DNA from: Thermovibrio ammonificans HB-1
GTDB lineage: Bacteria > Aquificota > Aquificia > Desulfurobacteriales > Desulfurobacteriaceae
Assembly: GCF_000185805.1 (NCBI RefSeq)
Contig: NC_014926.1
Location: forward strand, 1,358,501-1,422,500
Reading direction: 5' to 3'
Length of the DNA stretch: 64,000 nt
The notes beneath the pieces were generated by a model. It worked only from the letters and a program-made list of their open reading frames with translations, searched no databases and was not told the DNA's origin. Of this stretch, positions 31,834 through 48,031 are shown piece by piece. Numbering within the stretch: the first letter of the stretch is position 1; each line of letters opens with the position of its first letter. Both the position numbers and the translations under genes were made by a program.

Positions 31834-32155
31834 TTAATTCCTTTTCTGTAAAAACTCTGAAATTACAGTTAGAATCCTTTCACAGGTCGTCTCAAAACTC
31901 TCCTCAACCTTGTCGTTTATGTGCTTATGATGTGGATATGTTCTAATATTCTTATGGTGAGGAGCGTTATCCCACCTAATAATCAGTTTACCGTCTCTAC
32001 TTCGCCAATGATAAGAGTAATTTCTTTCCTCTTCATCTACATATCCTTGTATATAAAGTCCTGAATTATCTCCCAAAATAACTTAACTTTTATATGGAAT
32101 TCATTTTAAAAGTTCGAAAGTCTAAAACCTCAAAATTTTTACTATTGAGAACTGA
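31834..32155 (-). pseudogene. DUF6516/TumE-like toxin gene, apparently frameshifted twice
   Basis: The intact downstream frame (31834-32076, TTG start) encodes 80 aa with NYSYHWRSRDGKLIIRWDNA, PHHKNIRTYPHHKH and VEESFETTCERILTVI. This is the C-terminal signature of the DUF6516 family, described as TumE toxin. The missing N-terminal part is present in other frames: SKNFEVLDFRTFK, then a -1 shift at AAAA (near 32101-32106) into NEFHIKVKLF, then a -1 shift at TTTT (near 32074-32078) into LGDNSGLYIQGYV. Joined, this matches the expected family sequence. Either the gene is broken, or it uses slippage, or two bases are missing from the sequence. Confidence 0.65.
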
Positions 32156-32227: not shown

Positions 32228-32406
32228 GCAAGCTTTCCATTCCATAACGTCCTGTAATAGTCATCCCAGGCTTCAAAATTTTCAGGAGATGATTTCAACT
32301 CTCTCTCAAATTCCTCAAAAGTTTTACTATACTTAACTAATGTATAGCGCAATTCATATAGGAACTCCGCTTTGTAGATATTCAGTGGCTTCTCTTTATT
32401 AAGCAT
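32224..32406 (-). CDS. 60-aa hypothetical protein after the RT-nitrilase gene
   Basis: The 60-aa protein begins 18 nt after the RT gene stop and is acidic and helical (KYSKTFEEFERELKSSPENF, AWDDYYRTLWNGK). In position it could be the antitoxin of the TumE-like toxin that follows, or an accessory of the RT. No family is recognised, and the functional idea is inference from gene order only. Confidence 0.5.
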   Translation of the reverse strand: MLNKEKPLNIYKAEFLYELRYTLVKYSKTFEEFERELKSSPENFEAWDDYYRTLWNGKLA

Positions 32407-32424
32407 AAAAAATAGCTGAACACC

Positions 32425-34923
32425 TTAACTACCATAATTCCAAGTTTTTCTATCTTGACTTATAGATGTATGAAATCCGGGAGGGATAGGCTTAAACTCA
32501 GAACTTTCGTTAAAATAAAGTTGAGAGTGGAATTCACGCAAAGATTTTACATCGATTGTATCTACTATGAAAAATGCGTTTTTGCCACCTTTTATTCTAA
32601 TAATATCTCTTTTATAGTCTTTTCTGTAAGGAGCTCTTATTCTAGAATCTCCATACTTGCCAGAATTCACTAAAACTACAAAACAATGAAGGTCGCGCGC
32701 GGCAGACTCAATAATTGCATTAAAATAATCCAAATCCTTATTTAGAGCTACTATAAACAATGCATCTATCTTTCCTCTAAGCTTGCTTCTTAAGTTTATA
32801 TCTGCAATGTCGTAGCAGATAAGATTAGAGAAAAAGAAGTCTTGGTGTTCATAGACGACTTTTGGAGTATCATCTGCCTCTTTGTGTATATATTTATGAC
32901 CTTTAATAAGAAGAGATTCCCTCGGAGAATAGTGCACTTTTTCTTCTTCAATTAAAATATAAAAGTGCATATAGGGCGTTTCGGAGTATAATAAACTATA
33001 GACTGGATTTATTACTCTTTTATTCCTAAATCTATATTCACCCCCACTTATTAAAGATGTCTTTCTGGAAAAAAGAGGTTGTGAAACATAGATTACCCAA
33101 TCCTTCGGTAGGGCAAATTCGGGAAATAAAATATAATCAATATTATGTCTGCAGTTGATCACACCATTTATTATACGTATCAGTTGTTTAAATTTTTCTT
33201 TTGTTCTTGTTTCTTTTCTCTTTAGCTTAAGCTCTACTTCTTTCTCTTCTACAATAAAATTTGTCATACCAACATTAATAGTATCTTTTGTATCTTCCTT
33301 GCGTATAGCTATTTTCAATAAAACATCTCCTTCTTCTTGGATATTGATAGGAGAACTATAAAGGAGCACACCTTTTCCTAGTAGTAAAATTAACTTTATT
33401 AAATCTTGCAAATTTTCTGAGGTTATGATTCTTGAGTTCTCGCTTTTGCCATTTTGATTATATAGGTTTTTGTAATCTACTATAGAAAACAGGTATATAT
33501 AAGGTATCCGTATTGAAGGAAACAAAAGGAATCTAAAAAGTTTGTTTAAATCTTTTATCTTATCATTTTCTTTAGCTATGTCTTCCTCTAATACTTTAAG
33601 TTTATCAAGTAATTCTCTGAATACTATTTTAAATAGCTCGTTTTTAGGTTCCTGCTTGGGCATAGGTTGGGTAATATTGATATCACTAAAATATTCCTCT
33701 AAGAATTCCCATCTATGTTCAAAGTTAATTAGGAATTCAAAAATTTTCTCTCTTAACTCCAAGTTGTGCATTTTTAAATTTTCAATAAAATCCTTTTTTA
33801 TCTTAAGATATCTATCCTTTGCTTGAATGAAGTCTAATAGTTTATCGCTTGGAATGGCAATAGATATATTATGTTCTACAATCCGCCTTAAGTGTGATTT
33901 AAGTTTGGTTTTTATAGGTTTTGCTTCTTCATCTTTAAAGCACATAAGTCCCTTTATCTCTACTTTGTTAACCGCGTTAATGAGTTGAAATATCTCATCT
34001 TTTAAACAAAGAATTTCTTCTTTATCACTATTCCATGCCATAAGTTGTATTAGCTGCAGAACATTTTTGATATTCTCAAAGAAATTTACGGGGTCTAATA
34101 GTAGTGTTTTAATTTCTTTGTATAGTTCTTGCCTTTCATTTCTCCACTCATTACTGGGCAAATACTTACTTTGCTCCCTTAATTTAGAGATTAGGATTGA
34201 CATTCCTAGCCTACGAATTCTAACCTTGTCTACTTTTCTCAGATTATCGCCAAACTCGCCTTCAGAATATATTTGAAATACCTTTTCTAGAAGGACAGAA
34301 CTTTCATCTATAAAATCTGGCATAAGTTTACGAAGACTGGAAATTTCATTGATTTCTCTTTGAATAGCATTGATTACAGAAGGAGTAACACCTTTGGATA
34401 GGAAAAAATTTTTCTGTTTTTTTGAGTTAATTTTTATCGTTATTTTTGGACTTTGCTCACTTTCATTTGGTTGAGCAAGAGGAAAAATATATTCATCTTC
34501 GTATTTCTTTAAGCTGCCTTTAAGTTTTCTGGAGAAAAGCGCTTGTAAAGGGTCTTTATTAAAATCAATTTTATCCCCTTTTAATATTATGATAATATCG
34601 TCTATGTATCTCCCGTAAAATAGAGCACTGCTTTCATCATTAATGAATTCATCAAATTCTCTAAGGTAAAGGTTAGCCAGTATCGGTGATGGTAAAAAGC
34701 CTATAGGGAGTCCTCGGGAATTTACTTTTTCATTCCATGTTTCTATTATTTTGAATAACCTTTCATTTAAATTTTTAAGATTCTCTTTATCTGCTCCACC
34801 TTTTTCTTCTATTATGTTCTCAACTAGCTTTTTACAATAGTTTAGGTTAATGCTTGGATAGAAATCGGATATATCCAGAGTTAAGACTAAAATGTCATAA
34901 TCTTTGTGTAGCTTATTTATCAT
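32425..34923 (-). CDS. reverse transcriptase-nitrilase fusion (DRT type 1/UG1-like), main open frame
   Basis: The 832-codon frame holds reverse transcriptase motifs A (VLTLDISDFYPSIN, D17), B-like (RGLPIGFLPSPILANLYL) and C (YGRYIDDIII, YIDD at 106-109). A long helical region (about 190-560) follows, then a carbon-nitrogen hydrolase (nitrilase) domain at about 586-800: catalytic-type Glu in DYILFPEFALP (E602) and Cys in SNLICYDIAD (C703). An RT with a C-terminal nitrilase domain is the architecture of type 1 defence-associated reverse transcriptases (UG1; related groups also have it), which protect against phage. The ATG at 34923 is probably not the true start: the same frame is open to 35178 and carries RT-like sequence (IFYAPIEIHIFSALW), and the N-terminus lies in other frames up to 35470. 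Confidence 0.85.
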   Translation of the reverse strand: MINKLHKDYDILVLTLDISDFYPSINLNYCKKLVENIIEEKGGADKENLKNLNERLFKIIETWNEKVNSRGLPIGFLPSPILANLYLREFDEFINDESSALFYGRYIDDIIIILKGDKIDFNKDPLQALFSRKLKGSLKKYEDEYIFPLAQPNESEQSPKITIKINSKKQKNFFLSKGVTPSVINAIQREINEISSLRKLMPDFIDESSVLLEKVFQIYSEGEFGDNLRKVDKVRIRRLGMSILISKLREQSKYLPSNEWRNERQELYKEIKTLLLDPVNFFENIKNVLQLIQLMAWNSDKEEILCLKDEIFQLINAVNKVEIKGLMCFKDEEAKPIKTKLKSHLRRIVEHNISIAIPSDKLLDFIQAKDRYLKIKKDFIENLKMHNLELREKIFEFLINFEHRWEFLEEYFSDINITQPMPKQEPKNELFKIVFRELLDKLKVLEEDIAKENDKIKDLNKLFRFLLFPSIRIPYIYLFSIVDYKNLYNQNGKSENSRIITSENLQDLIKLILLLGKGVLLYSSPINIQEEGDVLLKIAIRKEDTKDTINVGMTNFIVEEKEVELKLKRKETRTKEKFKQLIRIINGVINCRHNIDYILFPEFALPKDWVIYVSQPLFSRKTSLISGGEYRFRNKRVINPVYSLLYSETPYMHFYILIEEEKVHYSPRESLLIKGHKYIHKEADDTPKVVYEHQDFFFSNLICYDIADINLRSKLRGKIDALFIVALNKDLDYFNAIIESAARDLHCFVVLVNSGKYGDSRIRAPYRKDYKRDIIRIKGGKNAFFIVDTIDVKSLREFHSQLYFNESSEFKPIPPGFHTSISQDRKTWNYGS

Positions 34924-35470
34924 GTCAATAGCATCTTCTCTCCATTGGGAATACTTATAGTAGTAAGGAATAAATATCCCAGGATATGCTTCATCATAGC
35001 TTCCTGATTTTGTTTCTTGACAAGAATCCAGTATAAGATTTCTTTTTAATCTACCACCATAAATATAATCTGGAAAACTTTCGTCCAGGAGACTTCCTAT
35101 TTTTTCTATCCATAAAGCACTAAATATGTGAATCTCTATAGGTGCATAAAAAATTTTCTTAAAATCAAAGTTCCTTTGCTAGCTTTCTGCATAAGATGTT
35201 GCTTACTATTTGTAATTAACACTATTGCCTGCTTATTAAAGTCATCGTCCAGCTTGAAAGAATGAGGGTATAAGAAGTAAGCATTTTCATCTATAAATTT
35301 AAGAAGTTCACCTTTTTCTATGCTACTTGCTACTTGTTTTATTTTAGAGAAAAAGGAAAGTTCAAAATTTAAAAGGTCTTCCCTATAGATATCTGGGTCC
35401 AAGCTACAAAGCTCATTTTTACTTTCCTGTATAGTCTCGCTATTCCATATTCAAACTCAGTAAACTCCAT
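34924..35470 (-). pseudogene. 5' part of the RT-nitrilase gene, split over three frames
   Basis: An ATG at 35470 directly follows the methylase stop (TAAATG) and begins MEFTEFEYGIARLYRKVK. A -1 shift at AAAAA (near 35416-35420) enters NELCSLDPDIYREDLLNF and an 88-aa frame (35136-35402). A second -1 shift at TTTTTT (near 35150-35156) enters KIFYAPIEIHIFSALWIEKI and runs on into the main frame at 34923. The segments join into one continuous RT N-terminus; the complete protein would be about 1015 aa. As read, the RT cannot be made whole without two slips or two missing bases. Confidence 0.7.
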
Positions 35471-38400
35471 TTAAACACTCCTCGCTTTTTTGAGGCGGTT
35501 TTGGACAAGCTCGGCGACAGCGTAGTAGACTTCTTTGCGTTCTTCTTCGGTTAGGCCAAGGGCGTCAAAAACTATGTCGTCAAGAGCTTTGCGGTCGGGG
35601 AGTGGATTGGGTTCCTGTTCTCTTATTGGTCTGTTTGGGTCAAAGCCAAGTTCCTTGAAAATGGAAAAAATTTCCCGTTTAAACATCGCAGGTATTTCTT
35701 TTACACCTTGTACAAAAAACGTAAACTTATTCCTAACATCATCTACTGGAAGCTCTATTATTGTTATAGCTCCCGTCATTTCCCTTGCCATTGTCTCAAT
35801 AAACAGTCTATCTAAAGTAGCATTTAAAGATACTACAAAATCTAAATCAGAAATATTTTTATCCTTCAGTTTAACATAATAGTTCCTTTGGTCGGTAGGA
35901 TAGTTATTAATATTCCAGAAAAAAGCATAACGCTCTCCTATACTTTTCCACCAAAGAAATTTCATATCTTCTTTCACTGATATTTGATACCAAAAGTTCC
36001 TACCCCTACAGGTAGGTCTCCTATTAAAACCTTGCTCCTCTCCCCACTTTATGTAGTCAAGAGCAAAGGTTCTTTTCAATTCCTTTTTAGTTTTATTGCA
36101 TAGGAAAATCCTGTATTTAGGGTCTTCTTCTCTAACTATAATTGTTTTAAGCTCTCTGGGGCTTTTTATAACTGGCCTGAGAAACTCCCTTTCAACGAGG
36201 AAAAGTTTGTAGTTTTTTGCGTTCTTTCCCCACTTGCTCGGTTTTATGATTCTGAGTCCTGCTTTTCTTATCTCTTCAACTGAAGTGAAATCCCTCAGGT
36301 TTTCAACTCTTTCAAGTTCGCCATCCTCAACTTTATCAGTTAAATCCTCAACGTAGAAAAATTCGTTTGCTCCTGTTTTTATTCCAAATTTTACTTCTGC
36401 GATGTCTCCAAGCCTTACAAATTTCCCTTTTCCTTTTCTAAGTATTGTAAAGAAGATGTCGGGAGCTCTCAGGAATTTCCCTCCCCACTTGTTCCCTTCA
36501 TATTTTCCGTCTCTCGTTCCGTCCTTCAGGAGGTCTTTATGCTTAATGGGGAATAGTCTGAAAGCCTCGGTCTTTATAACGTTCTCTGAAAGCTCCGGGA
36601 GCTCCGCCTCCTCTACCCTGGGCTGGGCTTTCTCTATGAAATTCAGATATTCCTTAAACTTCGGGCTTTTTACTACCTCCTCAAAGGGAATTTTCCACAT
36701 TACGAACTTGACTACATTCTCAAGATTTTCCTTCTCTCTCCTCTTATCAGTTGGAGCAGAAATGAAGGTTATCACCGTGTTAACATCAGCCTCTTTAAAG
36801 CTCCTTTTACTTTGATTATCGTTAATAGAGTAGATTTTCGTTCTTTTCAGAAGGAATTCCTGAAGGGTTTTACCAAATCCAACGTCAAGCCAGGAGTTTG
36901 AGGTTATGAAACCAAGAGTTCCTCTCTCATTAAGAAGACTGAAACCTTTAAAGTAGAAGTAAACATATAAATCAGCCTTGCCATCTGGTTTGAATTCTCT
37001 GCCGTATAAGGTTTCAACCATGTTCCTCAATTTCTCTTTATACTCTCTTTTAAGTTTCTTCCATTCACTCTGAGAGTAACCCTCCTCACTTTCGCTTGGT
37101 GGGGCTATGAGTTCCTGTCTTACATAGGGTGGGTTGCCTACTACCAGGTCAAAACCTTTTTTTTCGCCTTGAAATACTTCAACAAAATCTATATCCCAGA
37201 TGAATGGACGCTTACCTTTTTCAAGAGTACTTTTGACTTTTTCCCAGAATTCTTTTTCTTTTTCAAATCGTTTAAGTTTTTTCTTAAACAGTTCTTCCAT
37301 CTTTCTTTCTTTACCAAAAAGGTCTTTTTCATACGACGGGGAAGATTTTAAATTTGCCATTTGTTGTTCTATATGGTAAAGTTTATCCTCTATTATTTCC
37401 ATAAAGAGTTGAAGTTCTTCATGCTCTATCTCTTCCTTCTTGGGTGCTCCAGGTTTGTTTTCAATATATAGAAGTTTTTTCCTCTTAAGCTCTGTTATTT
37501 TCCTCTTTATTGAGGGAGAAAGAGGTAGAGCTGACTTAAACTCAGGTCTTTGACTCCTTAGAATTGAGAAGTCTAAGTTTCCAAATTCCTCAATAAGGCT
37601 GTCTCCTACTCTGATTTTAAAAGAAAGGTTTGGAAGAAGGGGATTGAGCCAGAGTTTTTCTCTGCTAAGGTCGGCCTCAACCATAAGGAAAAGCCATAGG
37701 CGGAGCTCCGCAATCCTGGCGGCCCACTCCATTACATCAACGCCGTAGACGTTATTCTCTATTATCTTTTTCCTTATGGCGTAGCCGCTTTCTACAACAT
37801 TTGGGTCAAACCTGTGAAGCTTTGAGTAGAGGTGATAGAGGGTATCAACAAGTCCGACAAGAAATGCACCACTACCGCAGGCAGGATCAACAACTTTAAG
37901 CTCGTCAAGAGCTCTCTTTAGTTCTTCAAAGGTCTGACGGTTTTCAGGAAGGAAATCATCATCGAATATGAAGTCATAAATGGTCTCTTCAGATAAAGAG
38001 GTGTTTTTACGCAGATAGTAGATTAAGCTCTGAGTTATTATAAACTTGATTTCTGGCTCTTTAGTATAGACAATTCCCTTTGTAACTCCCTCTATATCAA
38101 TTTTGGCCTCAGGGTTTTTCAAAACCTCTTTAGAATCAAGGTGAACGAGCTTTTCATAGATTGTCCCGATAAATTCGGGGTTAACCGCCAGGTCCCTATC
38201 ATCTTCAAGGTCTTCAACCATCGTGAAGTTGTAGCCGTTGAGAAACGGGATTATTCCTTCCTCTTCTTTACCAAGTTGGTCACTCTTTAAGAAGAATTCA
38301 TCAGGAATTTGAAAGTCAACTCTGTCATAGTCGTTCTCTGAAAAGAGACCGCCATTTAAGTAAGGAGCCCTAATGAAGAGCTCTTTTACCTTTTCAGGCA

Positions 38401-39307
38401 AATAGGAGTATTTAGCAGGAATTTCTGCTCTTTTCTTTCCCATGTCCTGACTGAAGGCTGAGAGGCAGAGAGGCTTTAACCACTCTGAGTAAAAGGTTCC
38501 CCCTTTTTCAGCTACAAACTTTTTGTACTCTGAAACGAGAAAATCTATTAGCTTTTGGCCATTAAGCTCCTCAAACCACCCTTCCTTTTCCTGAATGAAG
38601 TAGATGAAAATTAACCTGTTTAAAAGCTGATGAGCAGCTTCTTTTGAAAAACGCTCTGGAGTTTTTGCACTCTCAGGGAGCTCTTTCCCTTTTACCTGAT
38701 TATAGATTATTCGCCAGAGGTTCACAAATCTTTTTATATATTCCCTAAAAAACCTCTTATTTAGAGAATCTACACTAAAAACCTTAAGGAGCTGACCTGT
38801 GGTAGGATTTTTAAGGTTGAATAGCTCTGACAGTTGAAGATAAGTCGTTTTCGAGACTTTCCCTTTTCCTACTATAAATGAGAAACGCCTGAAGTTGGTC
38901 AGTTTTTTATCAATCCTGCCGTCCTTTTCGCTCCTTTCATAATCCATCTGAACGTAGGAAAGGCGCCAGATAGGGAAGTCGTCAGAGTAGAAGGCTACCA
39001 GAGCTCCATCTTTGCCCTCTCTTTCAAGATGATGAACGACAAAGTCTCTGTGGTATTTCCGAAGTTTATCTGGAGAAGGAACTTTCACTATTAGGAAATC
39101 TATATTGTAACCCTCCGAGTCTTCATACTGGCCAAGGTGCTCCGCCTCAAGTATTTTTCCTGAAAACTTCTCTTCTATCGGAAGGAGCTCACCTTCGAAC
39201 CTAATATCTGCATCCGGAAACACTGTATAGAGGAATTGAACAAAATTCTCTCTATTAAACGCGTTTTCTATCAACTTTCTTAAAGTTTTACTAACCTTCA
39301 CTTTCAA
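35471..39307 (-). CDS. large Eco57I/BREX-like adenine-specific DNA methyltransferase
   Basis: The 1278-aa protein has the N6-adenine methylase motifs: SAM-binding motif I VVDPACGSGAFLVG (about 472-485), YGVDVMEWAARIAELRLW, and the catalytic NPPY (725-728, in DLVVGNPPYVRQE). The first 450 residues form a helical domain as in Type IIG, PglX and DISARM-class methylases; the C-terminal part (LGDIAEVKFGIKTGANEFFY onward) looks like a target-recognition domain. With the PLD-helicase gene just upstream it makes a two-gene restriction-type system; a nuclease domain of its own is not evident. The gene is intact, AT-rich relative to its surroundings, and probably acquired horizontally. Confidence 0.85.
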   Translation of the reverse strand: MKVKVSKTLRKLIENAFNRENFVQFLYTVFPDADIRFEGELLPIEEKFSGKILEAEHLGQYEDSEGYNIDFLIVKVPSPDKLRKYHRDFVVHHLEREGKDGALVAFYSDDFPIWRLSYVQMDYERSEKDGRIDKKLTNFRRFSFIVGKGKVSKTTYLQLSELFNLKNPTTGQLLKVFSVDSLNKRFFREYIKRFVNLWRIIYNQVKGKELPESAKTPERFSKEAAHQLLNRLIFIYFIQEKEGWFEELNGQKLIDFLVSEYKKFVAEKGGTFYSEWLKPLCLSAFSQDMGKKRAEIPAKYSYLPEKVKELFIRAPYLNGGLFSENDYDRVDFQIPDEFFLKSDQLGKEEEGIIPFLNGYNFTMVEDLEDDRDLAVNPEFIGTIYEKLVHLDSKEVLKNPEAKIDIEGVTKGIVYTKEPEIKFIITQSLIYYLRKNTSLSEETIYDFIFDDDFLPENRQTFEELKRALDELKVVDPACGSGAFLVGLVDTLYHLYSKLHRFDPNVVESGYAIRKKIIENNVYGVDVMEWAARIAELRLWLFLMVEADLSREKLWLNPLLPNLSFKIRVGDSLIEEFGNLDFSILRSQRPEFKSALPLSPSIKRKITELKRKKLLYIENKPGAPKKEEIEHEELQLFMEIIEDKLYHIEQQMANLKSSPSYEKDLFGKERKMEELFKKKLKRFEKEKEFWEKVKSTLEKGKRPFIWDIDFVEVFQGEKKGFDLVVGNPPYVRQELIAPPSESEEGYSQSEWKKLKREYKEKLRNMVETLYGREFKPDGKADLYVYFYFKGFSLLNERGTLGFITSNSWLDVGFGKTLQEFLLKRTKIYSINDNQSKRSFKEADVNTVITFISAPTDKRREKENLENVVKFVMWKIPFEEVVKSPKFKEYLNFIEKAQPRVEEAELPELSENVIKTEAFRLFPIKHKDLLKDGTRDGKYEGNKWGGKFLRAPDIFFTILRKGKGKFVRLGDIAEVKFGIKTGANEFFYVEDLTDKVEDGELERVENLRDFTSVEEIRKAGLRIIKPSKWGKNAKNYKLFLVEREFLRPVIKSPRELKTIIVREEDPKYRIFLCNKTKKELKRTFALDYIKWGEEQGFNRRPTCRGRNFWYQISVKEDMKFLWWKSIGERYAFFWNINNYPTDQRNYYVKLKDKNISDLDFVVSLNATLDRLFIETMAREMTGAITIIELPVDDVRNKFTFFVQGVKEIPAMFKREIFSIFKELGFDPNRPIREQEPNPLPDRKALDDIVFDALGLTEEERKEVYYAVAELVQNRLKKARSV

Positions 39308-39366: not shown

Positions 39367-42300
39367 TCATAGCTCCAAGTTCCTCTCCTTTAGAAACAGC
39401 TGAGAGAGAATCACTTCCAGTTCTTGGTTATCAAAAAATCCAGACTCTTCAGTAGGGCTTGAATATCTCTCAACAAACTCCTTGAGAATCTTTACCTTTT
39501 TAGGAATATCACTCTTAGACGTAACAACCTTGTAAATTTCTCTAGCCACAGATTTCGGAAGTCCGCTCTTATTTATAATATCCAGAGCTTCCCTAATTAC
39601 TTGTTTGCCCTCTTTAGAAACCCTCCCCCTTAAGGCCTTGAGTTCCCTAATAAGGCTTTTCTCGTAACTTTTTGCACCAGTGGCTGATTCATGTTTAAGC
39701 TGATTAAGCTCAGATTCAAAGGCTCTGACGTTTTCAGATAGAAGTTTATGGAAAAGCTCACGATTTAAAGGTGCTCTTCTTTCGTCTTCGTCTGCCTCAA
39801 GAAGTTCCACCGCCTCAAGGAAGTCAATCTCTCTGGCCGGCTTATCCTCGTAGCAGAGGAATATTTTCTTTACATTACCCTTCTTTAGAAGGGTTATAAG
39901 GAAGTTCTTATTCCAAAAGCGGCAGGAGCGGGCCTTTTTGGGGAATTCCTTTATTTGCTTGTATAGTTCCGGATTCTCTTCTTTAACTTTTTGAAGTTTC
40001 TTTAAGTAATAAAGGAGAGAGTTATCGTCTTCTTCCTCAACGGAAGCGTTTATCTTCTCAAACAGACCGCGGGGAGAAGTTTCCTCTTCTTCGGTTAAGT
40101 ATTTAGCATCCTCCCCAAGGGCTTCGTGAAAAGCCTGTAGTTTAGCTACAGCTGCAGCCTCAAGGCCTATCTCGCTTTCTGTTTTCTCAACTGGGAAGAA
40201 ATTAAATATATGGATTTCGCTAAAGGTTGTTCCTACCCTGTTAATTCTTCCAACCCTTTGTAGAACCCTCGTCGGGTTCCAAGGAATGTCGTAGTTTATT
40301 ATAACATTAGCACGGTGAAGGTTTATTCCCTCGGCCAGAACATCTGTAGTTATCAAAATTCTTATATCGTCCTTCTGTTTCTCTTTAGGAAGATTTGGGT
40401 CAAAGTTTTCAAGGATTTTATCCCTTTCGCTCCTTCCAGAAGTAGAGGTATAGGAGATTACACTGTTTCCAAACTCCTCTGCTAACTTTTTCTTGAGATA
40501 CTCGGCAGTTTCTGCAAATTCAGTGAAAATTAAGATTTTCCGCGCCTTAGTGAGCCTTTCATCTTTCTCCAGAAGTCTAAGGAGCTCCTCTACTTTAGGG
40601 TCAGACTTAACTTTACTCCACTTACTATAGAGCACCTCTATCGCTTTAACGTCTCTTTCCAAATTTTCATAGAACTCTCCCGTGAGCTGGTTTTTATCGT
40701 AAACCGTAACCTCTCCATCTTTTAAAATTTTTTCCAGGTCAAAACTGTCTGACTCTTCCACTTCAGCAAGGAGCTCCTCTATCCGCTCGTAGACGTTTAT
40801 CTTCTTGCTCATGTAGACTTTACCGCTCCTCTCAAACTCCTCAAGAACCTGCTTATGGGACTTTAGGAACCTCTCAAGGGAACTGACGAAAGAGTGAAAA
40901 CTACTCTCAAGGCGCTTTAGGAGAAGAACCTTCATAAGGCCTGCAAGGTTTCTCTGGGAAAGGCGTTCTATGTTTTCAGTTGACCTCTTTCTCAGGTAAA
41001 GAGCAGGAGTGTACCTTGCATAGGTCAAGCTTTTAATAGTGGCTATAGTCTCGTTAAAAAGGCTATCAAGTTCCTCATCAAGCTGATAGTAAACCTTTAC
41101 CGGTTTATTAACTTTAGGGAAGGTTACTCCTTGCTTCTCAAGGTCTTCCCTATAAAACTCCATTACCTCTTTTCTCGTCCTCCTTACCATTACATAGGTA
41201 AATACCTTTTTCCTGATTTCTTCTCCAACTTCCTTTAAGACTTTTCTATAGAACTCCGGGTTCTTCTTTCTATCTACTTTCTTTATTTTATCCTCAAGTC
41301 TTTTAAAGAAAGCGTCTATGCTGTAAATCCCTGGAATTGTAGGCCTTTTTTTATCCTGAAAGAGAAGAAGCTGAGCCCTTACATCTGAAGGCCTATTGTT
41401 ATAAGGAGTCGCCGTAACCAAAATTACATTCTTCTTTCGACAGATTTCGTGAAGAACCTTATAACTCTTTGTATCTTCATTCCTAAACCGGTGAGCTTCA
41501 TCAACTATTACAAGTTTATAGTCATCAAAATCCTTAGGGTCAAGGGAGGGAAGCTTTCCAGCTGACTCTACCAGAAAACCGGGAACAAGGAATTTCCTTA
41601 AAGTCTCCTCCCAATAATCTTTTAAGTGTGGAGGTGCAAAGACAAGAGTTCTTTTTCTAAGCTTTGAGGCAAGCATTGCTGCAATGAAGGTTTTCCCGAG
41701 GCCAACAACATCTGAAAGGAAAACTCCACCGTGAGTTCTCAGCTTTTTCTCTGCATCTATAACAGCTTCAACCTGATATTGGAGCTTCTTAAAGCCCTCT
41801 GGAAATGGTATATCCTCTTCATTCTCGACATCAATCTGCTCTCCAAAAAACTCATAGAGAAACTTCAGGTAAAGTTCATAAGGGGTAATTTCATCGTTAA
41901 GCCAGGTTTTCCCTTTTATGGTGGCAACGATATCTGCTGAAATATCTATACACTTTTCCCAGAGTTCTTCAAACCGCTCAATTGCAAATTGAACGTCAGT
42001 TGCATTTTTCAGTTCAACGTTAAACTCAAGGTTATCCTTTAAACCTGAAATGGTAAAGTTTGAGGAGCCCGTGATAACCCTACCAAAATCTATCCCGCTC
42101 CTGCTCTTAAAGATGTAGAGTTTCGCATGAAGGGGAGAGTACGGGTAATACTTTATCTGAAGCTTACCTTCCTCTATCCAGTTGATAAAGTCTCTAATTG
42201 CCTCTTCTTTCTTAAAACTCTCTTCAAAAGAGGCCGAAGAAAGCTCTTCAACAACCATATTAAGATACTCTTCTTTCTGCTTCTTTATATTCTTAGCTAA

Positions 42301-42522
42301 CTGAACCAGATTCCATACATTCTTTCCAACTTGGATTCCTACTATTATTCTTATTCTATCAACCTTTTTAAGCTCTTCATGAAGTTGATAGAGGCCAGAA
42401 AGATAAAAATAACCTACTATCACGTCAAGCTCTTTTGTATCTTTAAAAAGAGTTTTAAATCTATCTATGAGTTTCCTTCCTGGTTCATTCGTAAAAAAGG
42501 TCAAATCATTAAGCTGGTTCAT
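39367..42522 (-). CDS. PLD-nuclease/SNF2-type helicase fusion protein
   Basis: The 1051-aa protein has an N-terminal phospholipase D-type nuclease domain (about 5-190) with one HKD motif (H132-A-K134, then GSSNFT at 152-157). A superfamily 2 SNF2-like helicase follows: motif I DVVGLGKT (271-278), motif II DEAH (341-344), SAT-like VTATPYN, and motifs V/VI in TDVLAEGINLHRA and VLQRVGRINRVG. Helicases with a PLD domain cut or remodel DNA in several defence systems (DISARM-like, Type I/III-like). It is the first gene of the island operon, transcribed with the methylase 59 nt later. RBS is AAGG. Confidence 0.87.
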   Translation of the reverse strand: MNQLNDLTFFTNEPGRKLIDRFKTLFKDTKELDVIVGYFYLSGLYQLHEELKKVDRIRIIVGIQVGKNVWNLVQLAKNIKKQKEEYLNMVVEELSSASFEESFKKEEAIRDFINWIEEGKLQIKYYPYSPLHAKLYIFKSRSGIDFGRVITGSSNFTISGLKDNLEFNVELKNATDVQFAIERFEELWEKCIDISADIVATIKGKTWLNDEITPYELYLKFLYEFFGEQIDVENEEDIPFPEGFKKLQYQVEAVIDAEKKLRTHGGVFLSDVVGLGKTFIAAMLASKLRKRTLVFAPPHLKDYWEETLRKFLVPGFLVESAGKLPSLDPKDFDDYKLVIVDEAHRFRNEDTKSYKVLHEICRKKNVILVTATPYNNRPSDVRAQLLLFQDKKRPTIPGIYSIDAFFKRLEDKIKKVDRKKNPEFYRKVLKEVGEEIRKKVFTYVMVRRTRKEVMEFYREDLEKQGVTFPKVNKPVKVYYQLDEELDSLFNETIATIKSLTYARYTPALYLRKRSTENIERLSQRNLAGLMKVLLLKRLESSFHSFVSSLERFLKSHKQVLEEFERSGKVYMSKKINVYERIEELLAEVEESDSFDLEKILKDGEVTVYDKNQLTGEFYENLERDVKAIEVLYSKWSKVKSDPKVEELLRLLEKDERLTKARKILIFTEFAETAEYLKKKLAEEFGNSVISYTSTSGRSERDKILENFDPNLPKEKQKDDIRILITTDVLAEGINLHRANVIINYDIPWNPTRVLQRVGRINRVGTTFSEIHIFNFFPVEKTESEIGLEAAAVAKLQAFHEALGEDAKYLTEEEETSPRGLFEKINASVEEEDDNSLLYYLKKLQKVKEENPELYKQIKEFPKKARSCRFWNKNFLITLLKKGNVKKIFLCYEDKPAREIDFLEAVELLEADEDERRAPLNRELFHKLLSENVRAFESELNQLKHESATGAKSYEKSLIRELKALRGRVSKEGKQVIREALDIINKSGLPKSVAREIYKVVTSKSDIPKKVKILKEFVERYSSPTEESGFFDNQELEVILSQLFLKERNLEL

Positions 42523-47936: not shown

Positions 47937-48031
47937 TGGCGGAGGCGGATGGGAATCGAACCCACCACCCCGCTCCAAGCGGGGCCACCGGATTTGAAGT
48001 CCGGGGGGGACACCAGCCCCCGTCCGCCTCC
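47937..48031 (-). tRNA. selC: tRNA-Sec (anticodon UCA)
   Basis: The 95-nt minus-strand RNA has an 8-bp acceptor stem (GGAGGCGG with CCGCCTCC), a long 6-bp D stem (GGGGGC region), an anticodon arm CCGGA-CTTCAAA-TCCGG with anticodon TCA, a long variable arm (GCCCCGC...GCGGGG) and a T arm with GGTTCGATTCC. An extra-long acceptor/D arm, the big variable arm and the UCA anticodon define selenocysteine tRNA. The discriminator G and CCA are encoded. It lies 12 nt after the PHP gene stop and is probably cotranscribed with it. The organism therefore should make selenoproteins. Confidence 0.95.

Follow-up and report, generated by a model that had tools for sequence, protein, structure and literature searches.

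Which family of reverse transcriptases (RTs) owns a gene that joins an RT to a nitrilase domain in Thermovibrio ammonificans HB-1, a vent bacterium with a growth optimum of 75 C (PMC3570795), and does this copy still encode a working protein? Here we address both points from a 64-kb stretch of the HB-1 genome (hereafter the window), together with the relatives of the gene and the operons in which these relatives lie.

Family assignment

The gene runs on the minus strand from 35470 to 32425 and holds the sole RVT_1 match in the HB-1 genome (1,759,526 bases, two contigs), with E 1.2e-10 for the RT domain; the nitrilase domain was not detected by Pfam. The PADLOC profile RT_UG5-nitrilase matched at E 1.6e-182 and 607 bits, residues 6-913 corresponding to positions 107-899 of the 907 in the model, whereas the competing profiles scored 131 bits (Drt1a, UG1), 55 bits (St85 retron) and 40 bits (group II intron). 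In a maximum-likelihood tree of 77 UG5 and 4 UG1 proteins, the HB-1 RT fell inside the 77-row UG5 side, with the 4 UG1 rows outside (97*). Its branch there is deep and long, with Sulfuricurvum and a Bacteroidota/Bacillota group nearby, and the exact sister of the RT is unsure because long branches meet in this part of the tree; its nearest relative shares 32% identity. Among 136 genomes of the phylum no other carries the RT, in contrast to the helicase encoded upstream, found in 35 of the 136.

Judged by its sequence, the gene is thus a member of the UG5 RT-nitrilase family (DRT5L, class 3 UG/Abi) rather than of type 1 (UG1). The RT core is common to all the candidate groups, and the RVT_1, St85 retron and group II profiles do match weakly, but the score differences, the continuation of the sequence into a nitrilase and the tree leave virtually no chance of a retron, group II intron or UG1 (DRT1) identity, which we reject. 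An earlier note, made from the DNA letters, had placed RT motifs and a C-terminal nitrilase at these coordinates in a thermophilic autotroph; RVT_1, PADLOC UG5, Foldseek and the alignment to the DRT1 structure (PDB 9YFD) agree with this description on the minus strand and support a defence protein of the RT-nitrilase type. The phylogeny of UG groups that it proposed gave the UG5 placement, with no retron or group II intron affiliation found, and its label of type 1 DRT has to be given up.

The N-terminal part is spread over three reading frames

The gene and its reading frames are as follows.

32425..35470, minus strand: UG5 RT-nitrilase (DRT5L-type) gene with two frame changes (frames, profile and conservation)
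35369..35470, minus strand: frame A, 33 aa, with the UG5 N-terminal motif ..LYRKVK (ORF, stop to stop)
35136..35450, minus strand: frame B, 104 aa, UG5 N-terminal segment, model 59-131 (ORF and profile)
32425..35178, minus strand: frame C, 917 aa stop to stop, RT domain, helical middle and nitrilase (ORF and profile)

The gene has no single open frame: its first ~110 residues are distributed over three successive frames, after which 917 codons are open. A protein of about 1015 aa, as initially proposed, is therefore a count that runs straight through two frame changes and three ORFs. A profile of the UG5 N-terminus matched frame B at model positions 59-131 (E 0.001) and frame C at 129-180 (E 4e-16), while frame A showed only the motif, at model positions 43-47 and without significance; the residues of this YRKxK motif are ~90% conserved among relatives. 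The order on the profile is collinear over frames A, B and C and nearly without overlap, which argues for two one-base frame changes. These can be placed within 35450-35372 and 35178-35139, both near A/T (A-rich) runs. Translation begun at the internal ATG (34923) would leave out the conserved N-terminal RT residues W23, R43, Y72 and W79. With its N-terminal part split in this way, the full protein is probably not made in HB-1, and in this assembly the gene is by sequence a broken UG5 member that lacks a single functional reading frame.

The most likely reading, which we hold with good confidence, is that the HB-1 gene is a recently disabled copy. Errors in the public assembly would instead leave an intact gene, expressed as a thermostable UG5 protein of ~1015 aa; both changes do lie in short A/T runs, where 454 reads typically err, and beyond them the frame stays open for 917 codons with every catalytic residue retained. 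The published assembly, however, combined 40x 454 with ~4,285x Illumina coverage and was polished (PMC3570795), which argues against a simple homopolymer error, and although the gene contains 32 A/T runs of at least five, none is broken downstream of the N-terminus. The other genes of the window look unbroken, except in a decayed-looking stretch beside the RT gene (31.65-32.4 kb), which consists of fragments and an apparently N-truncated TumE, and we regard an assembly error as unlikely. Slippage during translation or transcription at the two A-rich sites, which would allow a regulated low expression of the full protein, is a weaker possibility still and a very improbable one. In its favour, an A followed by a Lys AAA codon stands at both sites, so placed that slipping back by one base would bring the frames together, but the A runs are short (four and five A), UG5 relatives are mostly single frames of ~1000 aa, and two low-efficiency slips in succession would yield very little protein.

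Directly downstream of the RT gene, with fragments in between, lies a TumE-type toxin gene (31834-32076, minus strand; Pfam E 6e-21) that has no recognisable intact partner adjoining and looks like a decaying island end. A 60-codon ORF without Pfam match is found just past the RT gene (32245-32424, minus strand).

Catalytic residues and predicted structure

The following parts of the protein were located by conservation and alignment.

34597..34875, minus strand: RT catalytic core, motif A Asp D102 and YxDD (Y191, D193, D194), invariant in 76 relatives; profile to 9YFD
34336..34338, minus strand: S281, candidate DNA-priming serine, invariant in 76 relatives
32440..33140, minus strand: nitrilase domain with the tetrad E687, K747, E754, C788 (conservation, Foldseek, 9YFD alignment)
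32473..32493, minus strand: C-terminal lid motif KPIPPGF with K896 and P899 (conservation and 9YFD alignment)

All 76 relatives share, and HB-1 keeps, D102, Y191, D193, D194 and K254 of the RT, the four residues of the nitrilase tetrad, and K896 and P899 in the tail. The earlier note had asked whether the nitrilase Lys and the catalytic triad are conserved in homologues: K747 is present throughout, and Glu-Lys-Glu-Cys is intact. An AlphaFold model of the HB-1 protein (pLDDT 80, pTM 0.82) shows a nitrilase fold, and a Foldseek search of the PDB with this model returned amidases, carbamoylases and nitrilases on top (probability 1.00, TM up to 0.67 on the target). Against a library of viral structures, its matches were RTs.

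The mechanistic guide is DRT1, for which a 2026 study reported that S402 primes DNA synthesis without a template, that tetramers and filaments form in dependence on DNA, and that a domain-swapped C-terminal lid covers the nitrilase (PMC13275509). DRT1 defence was lost in an RT mutant and in C1116A, K1219A, A1223F and S402A, and purified DRT5S and DRT5L likewise make protein-linked DNA without a template (PMC13275509). The nitrilase Cys is required for DRT1 abortive infection (PMC13275509), so that the role of this domain, called unclear in the earlier note, is in part no longer so.

The UG5 profile aligned to 9YFD up to residue 1226, through its last residues, with C788 at C1116 and FKPxPxGF at TKTQPAGF, where K896 meets K1219 and P899 meets P1222. 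The lid motif KxxPxG(F) is present in the HB-1 protein by this alignment, and on these grounds the lid looks common to UG1 and UG5. The priming residue is a more doubtful matter. S281 is the sole Ser/Thr invariant in UG5 (76 relatives) outside the catalytic motifs; it lies beyond the helix that succeeds the RT core and is two residues off the DRT1 S402 column in a phmmer alignment, a few more in the multiple alignment. As S402 is, according to the DRT1 authors, not conserved elsewhere in class 3 (PMC13275509), we offer S281 only tentatively as the residue that might prime DNA in UG5.

Operon setting in Thermovibrio ammonificans

The RT gene is the last gene after a two-gene restriction-modification (R-M)-like operon, in which the helicase precedes the methylase.

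39367..42522, minus strand: PLD(HKD)-SNF2 helicase, 1051 aa, RT-gene operon (profile searches)
35471..39307, minus strand: N6-adenine DNA methylase, Eco57I/PglX-like, 1278 aa, RT-gene operon (profile searches)

The RT start codon (35470) abuts the methylase stop (taaATG), with an AGGAG-like ribosome site just upstream. G+C is 31% in the RT gene, 39-40% in the methylase and helicase genes, and 50% in the neighbouring lepA, a contrast from which the island looks foreign; the RT gene may have arrived separately from the methylase and helicase. Relatives of the helicase at ~60% identity are usually followed by the methylase, and the slot behind it is empty or holds other genes. Three genomes of the phylum (L110, L113 and L121) have in this variable slot an uncharacterised 273-aa gene, an OLD/AbiEii-like AAA ATPase and a DUF5131 gene. 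Elsewhere in the window, ARAGORN found a selenocysteine tRNA gene (47937-48031, minus strand).

UG5 relatives recur in BREX and Type I R-M operons

Genomic context was scored for 80 UG5 loci, 78 from species genomes and 2 from plasmids. BREX operons accounted for 14 of the 80 (13 recognised by clustering, plus L027 with PglZ/BrxHI) and Type I R-M operons for another 14, or 28/80 together; three more loci were linked by proximity only, and 49 had no R-M or BREX linkage. Since more than half of the UG5 loci stand alone, R-M genes are not required. Several relatives lie among housekeeping genes (methylmalonyl-CoA mutase, pyruvate dehydrogenase, PEP carboxylase), and such neighbours did not enter the counts. 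Within operons, UG5 junctions are often four-base ATGA overlaps or abutting codons, and at BREX-I loci the UG5 gene is typically flanked by pglX and pglZ or by two pglX-like genes. Such embedded genes occur in Pseudomonadota, Chlorobiota, Kiritimatiellota and Actinomycetota, and the embedded and stand-alone states changed at least 17 times on a tree of 76 tips, which indicates that the UG5 gene has frequently entered and left such operons. None of four UG1 loci lay in an R-M or BREX operon, a number too small to serve as a control for linkage frequency; a UG1 control sample of 369 genomes of one class returned no loci, and plasmids contributed a handful. Phage records contained no UG5, and viral contigs gave four long UG5-like matches only.

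The main text of a BREX survey that lists embedded back-up effectors names neither an RT nor a nitrilase (PMC12839542). No description of UG5 in BREX or R-M operons was found in that main text or in those of the RT classification papers covered, Mestre et al. 2022 excepted.

Several loci have further genes of note. One UG5 gene lies beside KwaB (L050). Behind the Type I R-M operon of L081, the RT and nitrilase halves are two overlapping genes (534 and 454 aa), either a natural split or a frameshift. A gene of ~1130 aa without Pfam or PADLOC match lies 6 nt upstream of UG5 in L016 (732-4130), and one of ~1130 aa just upstream in L020 (1026-4418). Directly downstream of the UG5 gene, L036, L038 and L065 encode proteins of 146-165 aa whose N-terminal part includes a hydrophobic segment and which recall the drt1b next to DRT1; the two that were scanned had no Pfam match.

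Proposed function

We think it probable, taken as a whole, that the locus represents a UG5 RT-nitrilase closing an R-M-like operon, a DRT1-like second-line abortive effector of which HB-1 carries a disabled copy. By analogy with DRT1, the RT would use a side chain of its own, with S281 as the candidate, to prime the synthesis of short untemplated DNA, and the DNA adduct would drive assembly into tetramers or filaments. The C-terminal KxxP tail would shut over the nitrilase pocket like a lid, keeping the enzyme dormant; phage infection would open the lid, and the nitrilase would then destroy a vital metabolite, so that the infected cell dies or stalls. Inside an R-M or BREX operon, such a protein could form a second line against phages that get past DNA restriction, in a logic comparable to that of PrrC beside EcoprrI, and the likeliest function is that of an abortive effector which backs up a DNA-modification system as its second line.

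The linkage might also reflect ordinary clustering in defence islands, without functional coupling. The 49 unlinked loci, the three linked by proximity alone and the 17 changes on 76 tips, which mark a very mobile gene, all fit this reading, but in-operon positions with four-base overlaps or abutting codons in four phyla are tighter than neighbourhood alone would give, and we rate mere clustering as a serious contender that falls somewhat short of an even chance. A bolder extension of the second-line effector is speculative and, in our estimate, rather unlikely: BREX and Type I R-M systems would repeatedly carry UG5 as a built-in suicide module, which the Ser281 DNA adduct and the KxxP lid keep silent and which is released when a phage blocks or escapes the host DNA-modification machinery.

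The protein family was already known; the repeated capture of UG5 into BREX or R-M operons, seen in at least four phyla, points to a possible trigger, namely that DNA modification fails or is inhibited. The invariant Ser281 and the tail lysine provide single-residue handles on priming and latching in DRT5. The hope that a thermophile version might be a robust biochemical model is weakened by a gene that is frameshifted in the HB-1 genome at such assembly depth: the thermophilic host stands, and its copy, which appears broken, has limited use.

Comparison with known systems

Compared with other UG5-nitrilase/DRT5L proteins, HB-1 agrees in its domain order over the full length, in the catalytic residues, in the C-terminal FKPxPxGF and in the invariant S281; it differs in its deep divergent branch, in having CYDI where other UG5 have CSEL after the catalytic Cys, in its 75 C organism and in a gene spread over three frames. 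With DRT1 it shares the RT DD, the nitrilase tetrad and the tail lid residues, but it is ~200 aa shorter, has no drt1b partner, lies outside the UG1 clade and has no counterpart of S402 at the same column. The two upstream genes match the build of type-2 BREX-related systems, which combine an HKD-SNF2 helicase with an N6 methylase (PMC12839542), whereas no DUF499 or DUF3780 gene was seen in the window. PrrC is reportedly kept inactive by the Type I R-M enzyme to which it is linked, and an anti-restriction factor from the phage sets it free. PrrC-EcoprrI resembles UG5 in placing a suicide-type effector gene inside a DNA-modification operon, an analogy of layout between proteins that have no sequence relation.
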